A program made the translations under genes and the position numbers. The notes beneath the pieces are model-generated. The model was not told where the DNA came from, made no database searches, and saw only the letters and a program-made list of their open reading frames with translations. A stretch of 64,000 nucleotides of DNA from BD2-11 clade cluster bacterium bin43 (lineage in GTDB: Bacteria > Gemmatimonadota > Gemmatimonadetes > Longimicrobiales > Gaopeijiaceae): assembly GCA_002238605.1 (NCBI GenBank), contig MPMR01000004.1, positions 124,001-188,000 on the forward strand, written 5' to 3'. Positions 38,648 through 45,293 of this stretch are shown here, piece by piece (position 1 is the stretch's first letter; each line of letters begins with the position of its first letter).

Positions 38648-40957
38648 TCACCGGACCGGACCGGCATGCAGGTGCAGCACGCCCGGCGTGCCCGAGGCTG
38701 CGCCTTCCGTCAGAACCCTGCCGACCACGATCGCGTGTGGGCACCCGGCGGCGCGAAGGGCTTCCACACAGGCCTCGGCCCGGTCGGCCGGGATGCTGGC
38801 AAGCAGCCCGCCCGCGGTCTGCGGGTCGAAGAGGAGCTGGGCCGCGGGCTCGCCGGTCACATCGGGGTCGGCGCGCACCGATTCCAGCGCGCGCAGGTTC
38901 TGGTCGTGGAGCGAGGAGAAGATGCCGAGCCGGGCCACCTCGCGCGCCCCGTCCAGGAAGGGCACGTCGGCGAGACCGAGCGAGACCTCGACCCTGGACG
39001 CGCGCGCCATTTCCAGCAGGTGGCCGGCGAGCCCGAAGCCGGTCACGTCGGTGGCGGCGGTGGCTCCGTGTTCGCCGAGGATCCGCGCGGCGGGCCGGTG
39101 GGACTCCTGCATGAGGGCGAGCGCGGCGTCGATCCACAGGCTTTGCGCGCGACCGCGCATGTCGGCGGCCAGGATCACGCCGGTGCCGACCGGTCGGGTG
39201 AGCACCAGCCGGTCGCCCGGACGCATACCCGACTTTCGCAACAGATCTTCGGGGCGCGCCGTCCCGGTTACGGAGAAGCCCATGGCGAGCTCTCTCCCCT
39301 CGCTCGTGTGTCCGCCCACCAGCGCCAACCCGTCGCGCTCGAGGACCGTGAGCGCCCCGGCCATGAGCTGGGTGAGGTCCTCTTCCATCTTCTCTTCCGC
39401 GGCGAGCGGCAGCGTCACCATCGCCATCCCCGCCAGCGGCTCGGCACCCATCGCGAAAACATCGCCGAGCGCATGGTTGGCGGTGATGCGGCCGAAGAGG
39501 AAGGGATCGTCGATGAAGGAGCGGAAGAAGTCGACGCTCTGCACGGCCACTTGTCCCGCGGGAACCTGCACCACGGCCGCGTCGTCGGGGGCGTCCAGCC
39601 CGACCATCACGCCCGGATGACCGGTGGCGCCCAGCCGGGCCAGCGAACGGAAGAGCAGCTCGCTGCCCACCTTGGAGCCGCATCCTCCGCAGCGCATCGC
39701 CGGACCGGGGCCGACGGACCCCCCGCGCCATCCCCCGGACCCGGCCTTCGACGAGCCAGCCGGCGCCGGGCCATCATCGACACGCTCGCCATCCATCGAT
39801 GGCAGCTCGGTGTAGTCCCGGATGAAGCGCCGGTCGATGCGGTCCTTCCAGGTCCAGACCCAGCGACCTGCGACCGTCAGTCCGTTGCGGGCTGCGACGG
39901 CATGGCGCCGGCCCGTGGAGATCAGGCTCAGGTACTCGCGCTGGGGCCGGAAGCCGGCGAGGGACGCCCCGCGCAGGCGGCGCTCGAGGTTGCGGGCCAG
40001 AGGCGGCCCCTGGCGAACCGCAAAGACGCCCGCCTTCGGACGCGGATATCCTTCGACCGCGGCGATATCCCCGGCGGCGAAGACATCGGGATGGGACAGC
40101 GTCTGCAGGGTGTCGCGCACCCGGATGAAACCGCGCTCATCCACCTGCAGGCCGGATTTCCGGGGCCAGTCCGGGGCTCCCGCGGTCGTAACCCAGAGCA
40201 ACTCGTCGAAGGTGGCGCGGGCGCCGTTGCCGAAGTGCAGGCGCGAACCGTCCACGCGCACCACCCGGTGATCGGTGTGGACCACGATGCCGCCGTCCTC
40301 GAGGATGCGCGCGAAGCGCGTGCGCATGCGCACGGGGTATGCGGGGAGGATCTCGCTTGAATCGGTGAACAGCTCGATGCGCACATTGTCGCCGGCCCGT
40401 CCGGCGGCCTCCGCGGCGCGCGCGAGCCCGTAGCGGATCGAGAGCGCGATTTCCACTCCTCCGGCGCCGCCGCCCACAATCCCGATCGAGACCGGGTGGG
40501 ACGTGCCGGCGACACGCTCCCGGAGCCGCGTCCAGCGGGCGAAGAAGCCGTCGATGGGCTTGACCGGGACGACCGAGTCCTCGGCACCGGCCACTCGTCG
40601 TACTCCGGGCGCCGAACCCGTATTCAGCGAGAGCAGGTCGAAGGCCACCGGCGGACGCCCCGCGCACAGCACCCGCTTGTTCTCAAGATCGACCCCCACC
40701 AACTGGTCCCGGAGAAACCGGGCCTGGGCGAAACGGGCGAGCGGAGCCAGGTCGATATGCGCGTCCGCAAACGTGTAGTGGCCCGCGATCAGCCCCGGAA
40801 GCATCCCGGAATAGGGGGCGTTCGACTCGCGCGAGATCAGCGTAACCCGAACTCCGGGCATCGGCTTCATGCCGAAGTGCTTGAGCACGGCGACGTGGGT
40901 GTGCCCGCCGCCGACCAGCACGAGATCCCTGGTCACCGGTGGAGGCGGCGAGTGCAT
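38648..40957 (-). CDS. selD: NADH dehydrogenase-like FAD protein fused to selenide, water dikinase
   Basis: About 769 residues from the ATG at 40957 (AGGG 6 bases upstream; ATGs at 40972 and 40993 are alternatives). Residues ~10-390: pyridine-nucleotide disulfide oxidoreductase fold with LVLVGGGHTHVAVLKHFG, GIVGGGAGGVEIALS and DVFAAGDIAA, lacking an obvious redox CxxxxC. Residues ~415-769: SelD, with CGGCGSK (Cys426, Lys429) in the catalytic position and DDAAVVQVP, DPFLFGRITANHALGDVFAMG, GHTSEG and ATDVTGFGLAGH. SelD makes selenophosphate for selenocysteine or selenouridine. The fusion is known in several phyla and may couple selenium reduction to activation. No sel partner is nearby. Confidence 0.93.
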   Translation of the reverse strand: MHSPPPPVTRDLVLVGGGHTHVAVLKHFGMKPMPGVRVTLISRESNAPYSGMLPGLIAGHYTFADAHIDLAPLARFAQARFLRDQLVGVDLENKRVLCAGRPPVAFDLLSLNTGSAPGVRRVAGAEDSVVPVKPIDGFFARWTRLRERVAGTSHPVSIGIVGGGAGGVEIALSIRYGLARAAEAAGRAGDNVRIELFTDSSEILPAYPVRMRTRFARILEDGGIVVHTDHRVVRVDGSRLHFGNGARATFDELLWVTTAGAPDWPRKSGLQVDERGFIRVRDTLQTLSHPDVFAAGDIAAVEGYPRPKAGVFAVRQGPPLARNLERRLRGASLAGFRPQREYLSLISTGRRHAVAARNGLTVAGRWVWTWKDRIDRRFIRDYTELPSMDGERVDDGPAPAGSSKAGSGGWRGGSVGPGPAMRCGGCGSKVGSELLFRSLARLGATGHPGVMVGLDAPDDAAVVQVPAGQVAVQSVDFFRSFIDDPFLFGRITANHALGDVFAMGAEPLAGMAMVTLPLAAEEKMEEDLTQLMAGALTVLERDGLALVGGHTSEGRELAMGFSVTGTARPEDLLRKSGMRPGDRLVLTRPVGTGVILAADMRGRAQSLWIDAALALMQESHRPAARILGEHGATAATDVTGFGLAGHLLEMARASRVEVSLGLADVPFLDGAREVARLGIFSSLHDQNLRALESVRADPDVTGEPAAQLLFDPQTAGGLLASIPADRAEACVEALRAAGCPHAIVVGRVLTEGAASGTPGVLHLHAGPVR

Positions 40958-41072
40958 GGCGTCCCTGCGCATGGACTCAAGATGCCGCCGCATCGCGGCA
41001 CCGTTCAAGGTTCGGGTCCCGGAGGACAGGCGCGGACAGGAGGGATTCCCCTCCCATTCCGCCCCGGGAAGC

Positions 41073-42014
41073 CTACCGCCCCGGCCGGTCTCCGCGCGCG
41101 GCAAGCTCCGATGGAAGCAGCGCCGCGTGCATGAACTGGTGAAGCGGGGTGGCCACCCCGCACTCGCGCCCGAGGCGGACCACCGCGCCGCTCAGCTGTT
41201 CCAGCTCCGAGGGCCGGCCGGCGGCGATGTCGCGGTGCATGGAGGGGATGGAACCGCAGGGGAGACCATCCAGGAAGGCCAGCGAAGCCGCGATTACGCC
41301 GTCCGGCAGGCGCACCCCGCGGGCTGCGGCCACGGCGGCGGTCTCCTCCATCGAGCGGCGCAGAAGGTCCCGTGCGGGCGGGGTGGCGCGCACCTCGCCA
41401 AGCGGTACCCGGGCCACCGAACACACCCCGCTCACCGAGGCCATGAGGAGGAGCTTGTGCCACAGTTCCGCCTCGATGTCGTCGGAGACCACAACGGACA
41501 CGCCCGGGGCCTGCTCCAGCGCTGCCGCAAGCCGGTCGCAACGGCCGGTGCGTCGCCCGTCGCGCTCCCCCATCACGATCACGGGGTCGATGCCCGTGTG
41601 GCGGATGCGGCCGGGCTCGACCAGCTCGCACAGGATGCGGGTGAGACCGCCGGCCACCGCCTCGGCAGGCAGCGACCGTTCCAGCTGCGTCGCCGCCTCC
41701 ACTCCGTTCTGGAGCGGAACCACCACCGTGTGCCGGCCCACCAGCGGCCGGAGTGCCCGGCCGGCCGCCTCGACCTGCCAGGTCTTGGTCGTCACCAGCA
41801 CCGCGTCCGTTTTCCCGAGCGACGCGGGGTCATCGGTGGCGGCGACACGGTCCAGGCGCACGTCCCCCGCGATGCTCTCGATCCGCAGACCGCCCGACCG
41901 CAGCGCCGCCAACTGTGGTCCGCGCGCGACGAAGACGACGTCCTCTCCCGCCTCGACCAGGCGAGCTCCGAAGTAGCCGCCGACGGCTCCGGCCCCATGG
42001 ATCACGATTCGCAT
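41073..42014 (-). CDS. panE: 2-dehydropantoate 2-reductase
   Basis: 313 residues, start at 42014 behind GGGAG. Rossmann opening MRIVIHGAGAVGGYFGARL binds NADPH, LVTTKTWQ contains the conserved Lys/Thr region, and LQNGVEA and the C-terminal GVATPLHQFMHAAL match the ketopantoate reductase fold. It reduces ketopantoate to pantoate for coenzyme A. Related paralogues act on other 2-keto acids, so the exact substrate is an inference. Divergent from fumC, with a 201-base shared upstream region. Confidence 0.9.
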   Translation of the reverse strand: MRIVIHGAGAVGGYFGARLVEAGEDVVFVARGPQLAALRSGGLRIESIAGDVRLDRVAATDDPASLGKTDAVLVTTKTWQVEAAGRALRPLVGRHTVVVPLQNGVEAATQLERSLPAEAVAGGLTRILCELVEPGRIRHTGIDPVIVMGERDGRRTGRCDRLAAALEQAPGVSVVVSDDIEAELWHKLLLMASVSGVCSVARVPLGEVRATPPARDLLRRSMEETAAVAAARGVRLPDGVIAASLAFLDGLPCGSIPSMHRDIAAGRPSELEQLSGAVVRLGRECGVATPLHQFMHAALLPSELAARGDRPGR

Positions 42015-42215: not shown

Positions 42216-43619
42216 ATGTCCAACCGGTTTCGCGTCGAGCGTGATTCGCTGGGCGAAGTCCATGTCCCCGCCGACGCCCTCTACGGCGCCCAGACGCAGC
42301 GCGCCTTCGAGAACTTCCCCATAAGCGGCCAGCGTTTCGGGCGCGGGTTCATCCAGGCGCTGGGGCTGATCAAGAAGTCGGCCGCGCGCGTCAACCGCGA
42401 ACTGGGATACCTCGACGGCCACACGGCGCGGGCAATCGCCGCCGCCGCCACCGAGGTCGCCCGCGGGGACCGGGACGGCGAGTTCGTGCTCGACGTCTAC
42501 CAGACCGGCTCCGGGACGTCCTCCAATATGAACGCCAACGAGGTGATCGCGGCGCTCGCCAACCGCATCCTGGAGGGCTCCGGGGCCGCGCCCGTGCATC
42601 CTAACGACCACGTCAACTTCGGCCAGTCTTCCAACGACGTGATTCCTACCGCCATCCACGTCTCCGCGCGTACAGCCATCGAGGAGGAGCTGATTCCCGC
42701 GCTCGGTCACCTGCGCGGTCTGCTCGCGGCGAAGGCCGAAGCCTTCGACGGCGTGCTCAAGTCGGGCCGCACCCACCTGATGGACGCGACGCCGGTGCGG
42801 CTGGGGCAGGAGTTCGGCGGCTATGCCATGCAGGTCACGCGCGCCATCGAGCGCCTTCGGCACGCCTCGGCGGAGCTGGCCGAGCTGGCGCTGGGCGGCA
42901 CCGCGACCGGAACCGGCATCAACACCCACCCCGACTTCGCGCGTCTCACCATCGAGCATCTCTCCCGCGAGACCGGCCTCGCGTTTCGGGAAGCGGAGAA
43001 CCATTTCGCGGCACAGGGCTCCCAGGACGCCTGCGTGAGCGCCTCCGGAGCCCTGAACGCGGCCGCATCCGGCCTGATGAAGATCGCCGACGACATTCGC
43101 TGGCTCTCGTCGGGCCCGACTTCGGGGATTCACGAAATCCGGCTTCCCGCCGTCCAGCCGGGGAGTTCAATCATGCCCGGCAAGGTGAACCCGGTCATGT
43201 CGGAGGCGCTGATGATGGTCGCGGCCCGCGTGGCCGGGAACCACACCGCCGTTACCATCGCCGGAAGCCGCGGCAACTTCGAACTGAACGTGATGCTGCC
43301 GGTCATCGCTCACTCGCTGCTGGAGTCGATCACGCTGCTCGCCGGGGCGAGCCGCGCCTTCGCGGACCGGTGCGTCGCCGGCATCGAGGCCAACCGGGAG
43401 CGGGCGCGCGAACTGCTCGACCGCAACCCCGCGATCGCGACCGCGCTCAACCCCTACATCGGCTACGACGCGGCCGCCAGGGTGGCCAAGCAGGCCGCCC
43501 GCGAGGGCAGGGCGGTGCGCGAGATCGTGCAGGCGAGGGGTCTGCTTGACGAGGAGACCCTGGAGGAGGCGCTGGACGTGCGGGGGATGACGGAGCCCGG
43601 GCTGCCGGCAAAGGAGTAG
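42216..43619 (+). CDS. fumC: Fumarate hydratase class II
   Basis: 467 residues, ATG at 42216 with GGAGG at 42203. Lyase-superfamily signature PGSSIMPGKVNP, plus GSGTSSNMNANEVIA and GRTHLMDATP, place it in the fumarase/aspartase family; the IN-type residues and length fit fumarase C rather than aspartase. It hydrates fumarate to malate. Its last eight codons (EPGLPAKE and stop) form most of a 35-bp sequence that is repeated after the hipBA genes, so this end may be an integration site. Confidence 0.95.
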   Translation: MSNRFRVERDSLGEVHVPADALYGAQTQRAFENFPISGQRFGRGFIQALGLIKKSAARVNRELGYLDGHTARAIAAAATEVARGDRDGEFVLDVYQTGSGTSSNMNANEVIAALANRILEGSGAAPVHPNDHVNFGQSSNDVIPTAIHVSARTAIEEELIPALGHLRGLLAAKAEAFDGVLKSGRTHLMDATPVRLGQEFGGYAMQVTRAIERLRHASAELAELALGGTATGTGINTHPDFARLTIEHLSRETGLAFREAENHFAAQGSQDACVSASGALNAAASGLMKIADDIRWLSSGPTSGIHEIRLPAVQPGSSIMPGKVNPVMSEALMMVAARVAGNHTAVTIAGSRGNFELNVMLPVIAHSLLESITLLAGASRAFADRCVAGIEANRERARELLDRNPAIATALNPYIGYDAAARVAKQAAREGRAVREIVQARGLLDEETLEEALDVRGMTEPGLPAKE

Positions 43620-43635: not shown

Positions 43636-43749
43636 TTCCCGACCGGGAATATTTCGTTGGCGAGGATTCGCCGCGGCCACGATTGCTCCCGATCGGGAAT
43701 AAACCGGTTGGCGCAACGGCGACGCGCTCGTATTTTTCCCGATCGGGAA
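43636..43749 (+). promoter_or_regulatory. Three palindromic operators at 50-bp spacing
   Basis: TTCCCGACCGGGAA at 43636, CTCCCGATCGGGAA at 43686 and TTCCCGATCGGGAA at 43736, each starting exactly 50 bp after the last. The dyads are perfect or nearly so. Between the first two, GTTGGCG also recurs at similar offset. The last palindrome lies 46 bases before the antitoxin ATG. Antitoxins of the HipB type repress their own operon by binding such dyads, so these are likely HipB operators. Confidence 0.85.
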
Positions 43750-43794
43750 AGAATCACCGCACCGACCCGCTCATCCTTCATCGAGGCCCTTCCC

Positions 43795-44037
43795 ATGACT
43801 CGTACCCCCATGACTCCCACGGAGATCGGAAGGATTGTCCGCGCCACTCGCCGAGCGCAGGGTCTCCGCCAGGACCAGTTGGCAGGTGCCGCCAACGTGG
43901 GACCGCGCTTTCTTTCCGAGCTTGAGGCGGGCAAGAAGACCGCGCAGGTCGGCAAGGTGCTCGGGGTGCTCGCCGCCCTGGGTTGCGAACTGAGCATCAA
44001 GTCTCCCGACCCACCTGAGGACCGGCCTGACGCATGA
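43795..44037 (+). CDS. hipB: HipB-type antitoxin, XRE helix-turn-helix
   Basis: 80 residues. HTH_3 fold: EIGRIVRATRRAQGLRQDQLAGAANVGPRFLSELEAGKKT, with the recognition helix in GPRFLSELEAG. ATG at 43795 is chosen because the HTH starts a few residues later; the frame continues upstream to 43657 through the operators, so a longer start is improbable. It should repress the operon through the three palindromes and neutralise HipA. Overlaps hipA by ATGA. Confidence 0.92.
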   Translation: MTRTPMTPTEIGRIVRATRRAQGLRQDQLAGAANVGPRFLSELEAGKKTAQVGKVLGVLAALGCELSIKSPDPPEDRPDA

Positions 44038-45293
44038 CGCGCTCGCTGACGGTATGGTGGGACCGCAACGTCGTCGGCTCGCTGGCCCTCGACCGACACG
44101 GCACCATGCGGTTCGCGTACGCTCCCCGCTGGCTGGCCGAGGATTCTGCTCCGCCGGTGTCTTTTTCCCTGCCGAAGCGACCGGCGTCCTTCAGCACGCG
44201 CGAGTGCCTGCCCTTTTTTGAGGGCCTGCTGCCGGAGGGAGCGCAGCGAGATGCCGTAGCCGCCGCTCTCGGCGTCTCACCCGCGAATCCCTTTGGATTA
44301 CTGTCGCAGCTGGGAGCGGAGGTGGCCGGGGCGCTTTCGCTATTGCCCGAAGGGGAGGCGCCTCCTCCGCGCCGCGCGGCGGAACCGCCCGAGCCCCTGT
44401 CGGCTGAAGCACTCCTTCAACTCCTCGACACCATCCGAACCCGACCGTTCCTGGCCGCGCGTCGGGGCACCCTGCGCCTCTCGCTGGCAGGCGCTCAATC
44501 CAAAATGCCGGTCATCGCCATCAACAGCGCCGTGGCGCTCCCTTCTCCGGGACAACCCAGCACCCACATTCTGAAACCATCCAGTGCGCGCTTCCCCTCG
44601 CTAACGGAAAACGAGGCGTTCGCCATGCGTCTCGCGTCACGCATGGGGCTATCGGTGGCTCCCGTCCAGCCCGGCGTGGTCGCCAGCCGGTCTTTTCTGC
44701 TCGTCGAGCGGTACGACCGACGCCTGGATGGCGACGGCACGATCAAACGTCTTCATCAAGAGGATTTTTGCCAGGCTCTGGGCGTTCCGCCCGCGCAGAA
44801 GTACGCCTCCGAGGGAGGACCCACCTTCGCCCAGTGCTTCGATCTGGTCCGTCGCGTCTGCACACGTCCCGCACGAGAGGTTCTCAAGCTACTGGATGCG
44901 GCGATCCTCCAGATGCTCCTGGGTAACGCGGACGCGCACGGCAAGAACTACAGCTTGCTTGCACGCCCGGACGGATCGATCGAAGTCGCGCCGCTCTACG
45001 ACCTGCTGTCGACGATAGCCTATCCCGATCTGTCGCCGACGCTGGCCATGAAGATCGCCGGGCGCGGCAGCCTGAGGCAGCTGAGACGCGGCGACTGGGG
45101 CCGCTTTGCCGCGAGCGCGAGCCTGTCCGCCCGGTTCGTCCGCCGACGGGTCCGCGAGCTATGCGGTTACGCGCAGGAGGAGGTGGCGGCTACCGTGGCA
45201 GAGCTGGTCTCGCCGGGTCTTCGCGAGGAGGCTCTGGCGGGATGCGCCGGGCGAGTTTCGGGGAGGGCGCGGCGGCTGGCGGAGAGCGTGTGA
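44034..45293 (+). CDS. hipA: HipA-type serine/threonine kinase toxin
   Basis: 419 residues, close to family length. N-terminal couple_hipA-like region (GSLALDRHGTMRFAYAP; FFEGLLPEG), then the kinase: Gly-rich loop SLAGAQSKMPV, ILKPSS (ATP Lys), NEAFAMRLA, LLVERYDR, LHQEDFCQALG, catalytic GNADAHGKN (Asp ~300) and the DFG-like YDLLS (~323). In E. coli HipA phosphorylates glutamyl-tRNA synthetase and causes dormancy; the target here is unknown. Catalytic residues look intact. Follows hipB with a 4-base overlap. Confidence 0.93.
   Translation: MTRSLTVWWDRNVVGSLALDRHGTMRFAYAPRWLAEDSAPPVSFSLPKRPASFSTRECLPFFEGLLPEGAQRDAVAAALGVSPANPFGLLSQLGAEVAGALSLLPEGEAPPPRRAAEPPEPLSAEALLQLLDTIRTRPFLAARRGTLRLSLAGAQSKMPVIAINSAVALPSPGQPSTHILKPSSARFPSLTENEAFAMRLASRMGLSVAPVQPGVVASRSFLLVERYDRRLDGDGTIKRLHQEDFCQALGVPPAQKYASEGGPTFAQCFDLVRRVCTRPAREVLKLLDAAILQMLLGNADAHGKNYSLLARPDGSIEVAPLYDLLSTIAYPDLSPTLAMKIAGRGSLRQLRRGDWGRFAASASLSARFVRRRVRELCGYAQEEVAATVAELVSPGLREEALAGCAGRVSGRARRLAESV

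Follow-up and report, generated by a model that had tools for sequence, protein, structure and literature searches.

Promoters of hipBA toxin–antitoxin operons are already known to carry multiple operators 5′ of hipB, and HipBA promoter control is known largely from Escherichia coli, where these operators lie 28 and 39 bp apart. For Caulobacter crescentus, two reports describe three palindromic operator sites in the hipBA1 and hipBA2 promoters (PMC8545095) and regular inverted repeats in the hipBA promoters (PMC7029023). In the Legionella pneumophila hipBST system, three evenly spaced operators 5′ of hipB are bound by HipB in gel shifts (PMC10653801), with 53-bp gaps between 18-nt operators (PMC10653801), which, if counted edge to edge, make a spacing of about 71 bp (6.76 turns). 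Here, we describe the hipBA locus in a 64,000-nucleotide stretch of DNA (the window) from the Gemmatimonadota genome BD2-11 clade cluster bacterium bin43 (contig MPMR01000004.1, positions 124,001 to 188,000). Upstream of hipB stand three palindromic dyads, O1 to O3, which we take, with a probability of about 0.8, to be the operators of an autoregulated hipBA operon in which a 49/50-bp step would let neighbouring complexes touch, so that the array represses as one.

The dyads had been placed at 43636, 43686 and 43736 with an even 50-bp period in an initial annotation of the sequence, and start-to-start steps for O1–O2 and O2–O3 are indeed 50 and 50 bp exactly. All three were read from the sequence:

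43636 to 43649, no strand: O1, the upstream HipB-type dyad TTCCCGACCGGGAA, imperfect at the central pair.
43686 to 43699, no strand: O2, the middle dyad CTCCCGATCGGGAA, with the outermost pair off, directly 5′ of the −35 box.
43736 to 43749, no strand: O3, the proximal dyad TTCCCGATCGGGAA, the sole perfect palindrome of the three, over the predicted start point.

When the window was scanned with TTCCCGATCGGGAA, O1–O3 were the only sites with zero or one mismatch; six further matches had three mismatches each. The initial annotation had suggested looking for single sites elsewhere, and a scan of the whole 4.47 Mb genome again returned O1–O3 alone at zero or one mismatch. A terminator reading of O1, as a 14-nt dyad with a 4-nt loop, was at chance level and was rejected.

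Scanning genome contigs turned up 80 HipA loci; of those whose HipA identity was 41% or more, nearly all had TTCCCGNNCGGGAA-like dyads, mostly three, 5′ of hipB. These relatives came from Gemmatimonadota, Pseudomonadota, Acidobacteriota, Verrucomicrobiota, Myxococcota, Bacteroidota, Chloroflexota, Omnitrophota and others, and their steps were narrowly distributed: 49 bp occurred 77 times, 50 bp 66 times, 48 bp five times and 51 bp four times. Exactly 50 bp was discarded as a special value, since 49 bp is slightly commoner. In a further, motif-free test, 179 non-identical hipBA loci were each scored upstream of hipB for a triplet of dyads resembling one another and almost evenly stepped, using dinucleotide-preserving shuffles as the null at the 99% level. 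This null was exceeded by 125 of the 179 loci, including the window locus (L020); both steps were 48–51 bp in 92 of the 125 and 26–29 bp, as in E. coli, in 25. The remaining significant triplets comprised 39/39 (L218), 60/61 (L039), 41/41 and 31/31 (two low-scoring HipA-like kinases) and noise, while triplets at around 65 (L045) and 38 (L189) were rejected as noise. In a HipA tree built with FastTree, with flagged long branches and an unsure deep order, a single change separates the long-step and short-step classes (support 96; shuffled mean 21); E. coli belongs to the short-step clade, with the window locus placed deep among the long-step rows. The window array is real and of the long-step type.

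The step also outlives the sequence of the dyad. TTTATC-type dyads occur at 49/49 in L377 and a pair related to them lies 50 bp apart in L378, TTTCAA-type dyads stand at 50/50 in L137 and L138, and AGTTCCCTWWAGGGAACT dyads stand at 50/50 in L171. No long-step array half a turn away was found among the loci examined. In Ensifer (L218), a TTCCCG-like array has steps of 39/39 bp, with relatives L131, L375, L376 and L388 keeping 47–51, and L218 looks like a natural one-turn shortening. The 60/61 steps of L039 are clear in that locus and are not repeated in its two relatives. Two related Gemmatimonadota hipBA promoters (L043, L044) carry four or five dyads with steps of 50–51 bp and a last step of 64–65 bp. 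The spacing of hipBA operators appears to be under selection, and the earlier idea that spacing matters is supported by a 49/50-bp step kept across phyla and after changes of dyad, with no half-turn values in the long-step class.

One part of the initial annotation was not supported. The step had been called close to five helical turns, placing bound dimers on the same face of the DNA; with 10.5 bp to the turn, 50 and 49 bp correspond to 4.76 and 4.67 turns, which leaves neighbouring sites rotated by roughly 85–120 degrees on straight B-DNA, a rotation that bent or untwisted bound DNA could alter. Expressed in turns, the step classes are 2.57–2.76 (27–29 bp), 3.71 (39 bp), 4.67–4.76 (49/50 bp) and 5.71–5.81 (60/61 bp), and the E. 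coli steps, at 2.67 turns for 28 bp and 3.71 turns for 39 bp, agree in fractional phase with 49/50 bp. We hypothesise that this fractional phase is common to the step classes, of which 39 and 60/61 are each known from one or two loci. Short, low-scoring HipA-like kinases (L235, L220, L226, L256, L260, L048) are preceded by dyad pairs with a step of 31 bp (2.95 turns), which is off the phase of the full-length HipBA arrays.

The locus itself is an ordinary hipBA module; the interest lies in the spacing rule and in the phage arrays described below. Downstream of O2 the following features were assigned:

43708 to 43713, plus strand: putative −35 box TTGGCG, part of the best −35/−10 pair in O2–O3, at a position matching the TTGACA-like signal of 92 long-step promoters.
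43731 to 43736, plus strand: putative −10 box TATTTT, 17 bp after the −35 box, sharing the first base of O3 and matching the consensus weakly.
43783 to 43786, plus strand: putative ribosome-binding site GAGG, judged by eye from the letters, 8 nt before the hipB ATG.
43795 to 44037, plus strand: hipB, an 80-aa helix-turn-helix (HTH) antitoxin/repressor (PF01381, E = 1.2e-7), with an ATG at 43810 as a possible alternative start.
44034 to 45293, plus strand: hipA, a 419-aa HipA kinase toxin (PF07804, E = 7e-52; PF13657, E = 2e-24), overlapping hipB at ATGA.

HipA is full-length, with PF07804 and PF13657 both far above cut-off, and hipB lies directly 5′ in a co-transcribed layout. Window HipA matches E. 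coli HipA with E = 8.5e-45 and keeps all of the kinase residues S150, K181, D309, H311, N314 and D332 (E. coli numbering). HipB scores 67.5 bits against the TIGR03070 HipB family, slightly below the cut-off of 71.65, and its best PDB match is Legionella HipB. A fumarase/aspartase-type lyase gene lies 5′ of O1 on the same strand and ends at 43619; dyads repeated between this gene and hipB, with O3 over the predicted −10 box, give the layout of an autoregulatory array. When the 92 long-step promoters were aligned on O3, a TTGACA-like −35 signal appeared about 7 nt after O2 and the −10 signal merged with the TT of O3; the mean best −35/−10 score was 8.2 of 12 in O2–O3, 6.7 in O1–O2 and 6.1 5′ of O1. 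The distribution of close HipA is patchy, with two of 11 genomes of the genus (the window genome and G006) carrying it. A second hipBA in the window's genome (L036, G000:C9:26391-27521) has short-step, TGTCGCCG-type dyads at 28/27 bp, a difference that should keep each module to its own operators. Elsewhere in the window, an 818-aa open reading frame (ORF) at 38648–41104 on the minus strand appears by eye to be an FAD oxidoreductase fused to a selenophosphate synthase-like part.

Similar arrays occur in viral sequences. A search of IMG/VR with TTCCCGNNCGGGAA dyad pairs, allowing steps of 34–64, recovered 61 contigs (L283–L343) with pairs and sometimes triplets, dominated by steps of 49 and 50 bp with a few at 51, 39, 52 and 60; two control palindromes yielded 3 and 0 contigs. 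Examples from this search are:

L284, 293 to 355: phage array.
L286, 5365 to 5427: phage array.
L313, 2892 to 2955: phage array.

Only in L317 does hipBA lie beside the array. Across 40 whole viral records, which may be fragments, PF07804 was found nowhere but in L317 and the HipB family cut-off was reached by none; weaker HTH matches occurred in three further records. Of the 31 steps in non-redundant arrays that lie outside ORFs longer than 150 aa (pooled scans, L317 included), 26 were 49 or 50. The arrays are mostly intergenic, with neighbours that include terminase, major head protein, ribonucleotide reductase, exonuclease and SSB genes and no gene in common. Phage steps of 39, 51 and 72 were set aside as evidence of a helical ladder, because most of them fall within ORFs longer than 150 aa and are divisible by three, a pattern that coding repeats would give. 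Three phage-array regions were compared with named phages by Blast, and no host for the arrays emerged.

Binding, repression, contact between neighbouring complexes and cooperativity are inferred; the looped or wrapped complex with HipA and the steep toxin control put forward in the initial annotation are conjectural. HipB dimers, alone or with HipA, would occupy all three sites; O3, over the −10 box and start point, would block RNA polymerase, with O2 abutting the −35 box. The fixed 49/50-bp step would bring neighbouring complexes into touch, most likely through HipA, and the array would fill as one assembly and repress transcription. Loss of HipB would empty the array, raise transcription and free HipA. 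Several observations weigh against this model. The window −35/−10 pair scores 8 of 12, weak by itself, and a stricter generic promoter scan of the window did not report it. Shared ancestry makes the step counts across hipBA loci non-independent events. The E. coli HipA dimer-interface residues P86 and D88 are not kept across the long-step class as a whole, so the E. coli HipA contact is not simply transferable. Lastly, arrays exist on phage contigs that have no hipBA.

We consider it unlikely that HipB instead binds each dyad independently, with O3 alone repressing and the 50-bp step reflecting inherited history or promoter geometry in place of neighbour contact. That account gains from the promoter in the O2–O3 interval, which could fix that step, from the descent that relates hipBA loci, and from a degenerate O1 or middle site in some relatives (L021, L084). 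It fits poorly with O1–O2, which has the same step though it lacks a promoter signal, with a step retained where both dyad and intervening sequence have changed and, among long-step loci, never found half a turn off, and with phage dyad pairs that hold 49/50 in the absence of hipBA.

That the dyads are recognised by some other DNA-binding protein, with hipBA merely its target, we regard as very improbable. Phage contigs with arrays and neither hipB nor hipA favour such a binder; against it, arrays in host genomes accompany hipBA across phyla, and the recognition helix of HipB covaries with the dyad. Helix 3 of HipB has Arg in 85 of 85 TTCCCG-type loci and Phe in 84 of 85 (window GPRFLSELEAGK), and short-step HipBs mostly have Gln-Trp at the positions that hold Arg-Phe in TTCCCG-type loci; L218, with its TTCCCG-like dyad and 39-bp step, keeps Arg-Phe. 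This covariation fits HipB as the binder, with phylogeny contributing to the pattern. When 398 Pseudomonadota and 289 alphaproteobacterial genomes were searched on DNA sequence only, seven of them held exact dyad pairs, in every case beside hipBA. The original description of the dyads as HipB-type sites is supported, and it is very probable that HipB uses them as operators. GC-rich DNA commonly contains short palindromes, and window matches with three or fewer mismatches run at about twice the shuffled mean, yet a coincidence of three chance palindromes is ruled out by the genome-wide uniqueness of the sites at zero or one mismatch, the 99% shuffle null and recurrence across phyla.

The window locus is one of a broad class, spread over many phyla, whose 49/50-bp step exceeds the E. 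coli spacing by about two turns. Together, the short- and long-step classes form a natural series that bears on which contact sets the spacing and on whether operator-bound HipA is inactive. As a tentative suggestion, and a doubtful one, phages might use their arrays of two and sometimes three sites, at the 49/50-bp step of their hosts, to trap host HipBA, which would either keep the kinase bound to DNA during infection or bring phage genes under HipB control, and a single rule of about n + 0.6–0.75 helical turns might govern how HipBA assembles on all such DNA. If phage arrays do bind host HipBA, viruses would be targeting a toxin–antitoxin system by DNA sites alone.

No description of TTCCCGATCGGGAA, the cross-phylum step or the phage arrays was found in the literature searched, which left out most subscription papers; with coverage so limited, this negative lends weak support to the novelty of the step and the phage arrays. 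Set beside the described systems, the window resembles C. crescentus hipBA1 and hipBA2 in having several regular palindromic sites. The organism and the gene neighbourhood of the window locus are unlike those of C. crescentus; sampled Caulobacteraceae relatives (L055, L068) carry TTCCCG dyads at 49/50 bp. L. pneumophila hipBST differs in its dyad, in its 53-bp gaps and in being a tripartite system with a split kinase. E. coli K-12 shares with the window several HipB dyads 5′ of hipB at a similar fractional helical phase. Its four sites read TATCC-N8-GGATA, with steps of 28/39/28, whereas the window has a TTCCCGATCGGGAA core at 50/50; the window array is therefore not of the E. coli type, and its core is, as first noted, distinct from the E. 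coli operator.
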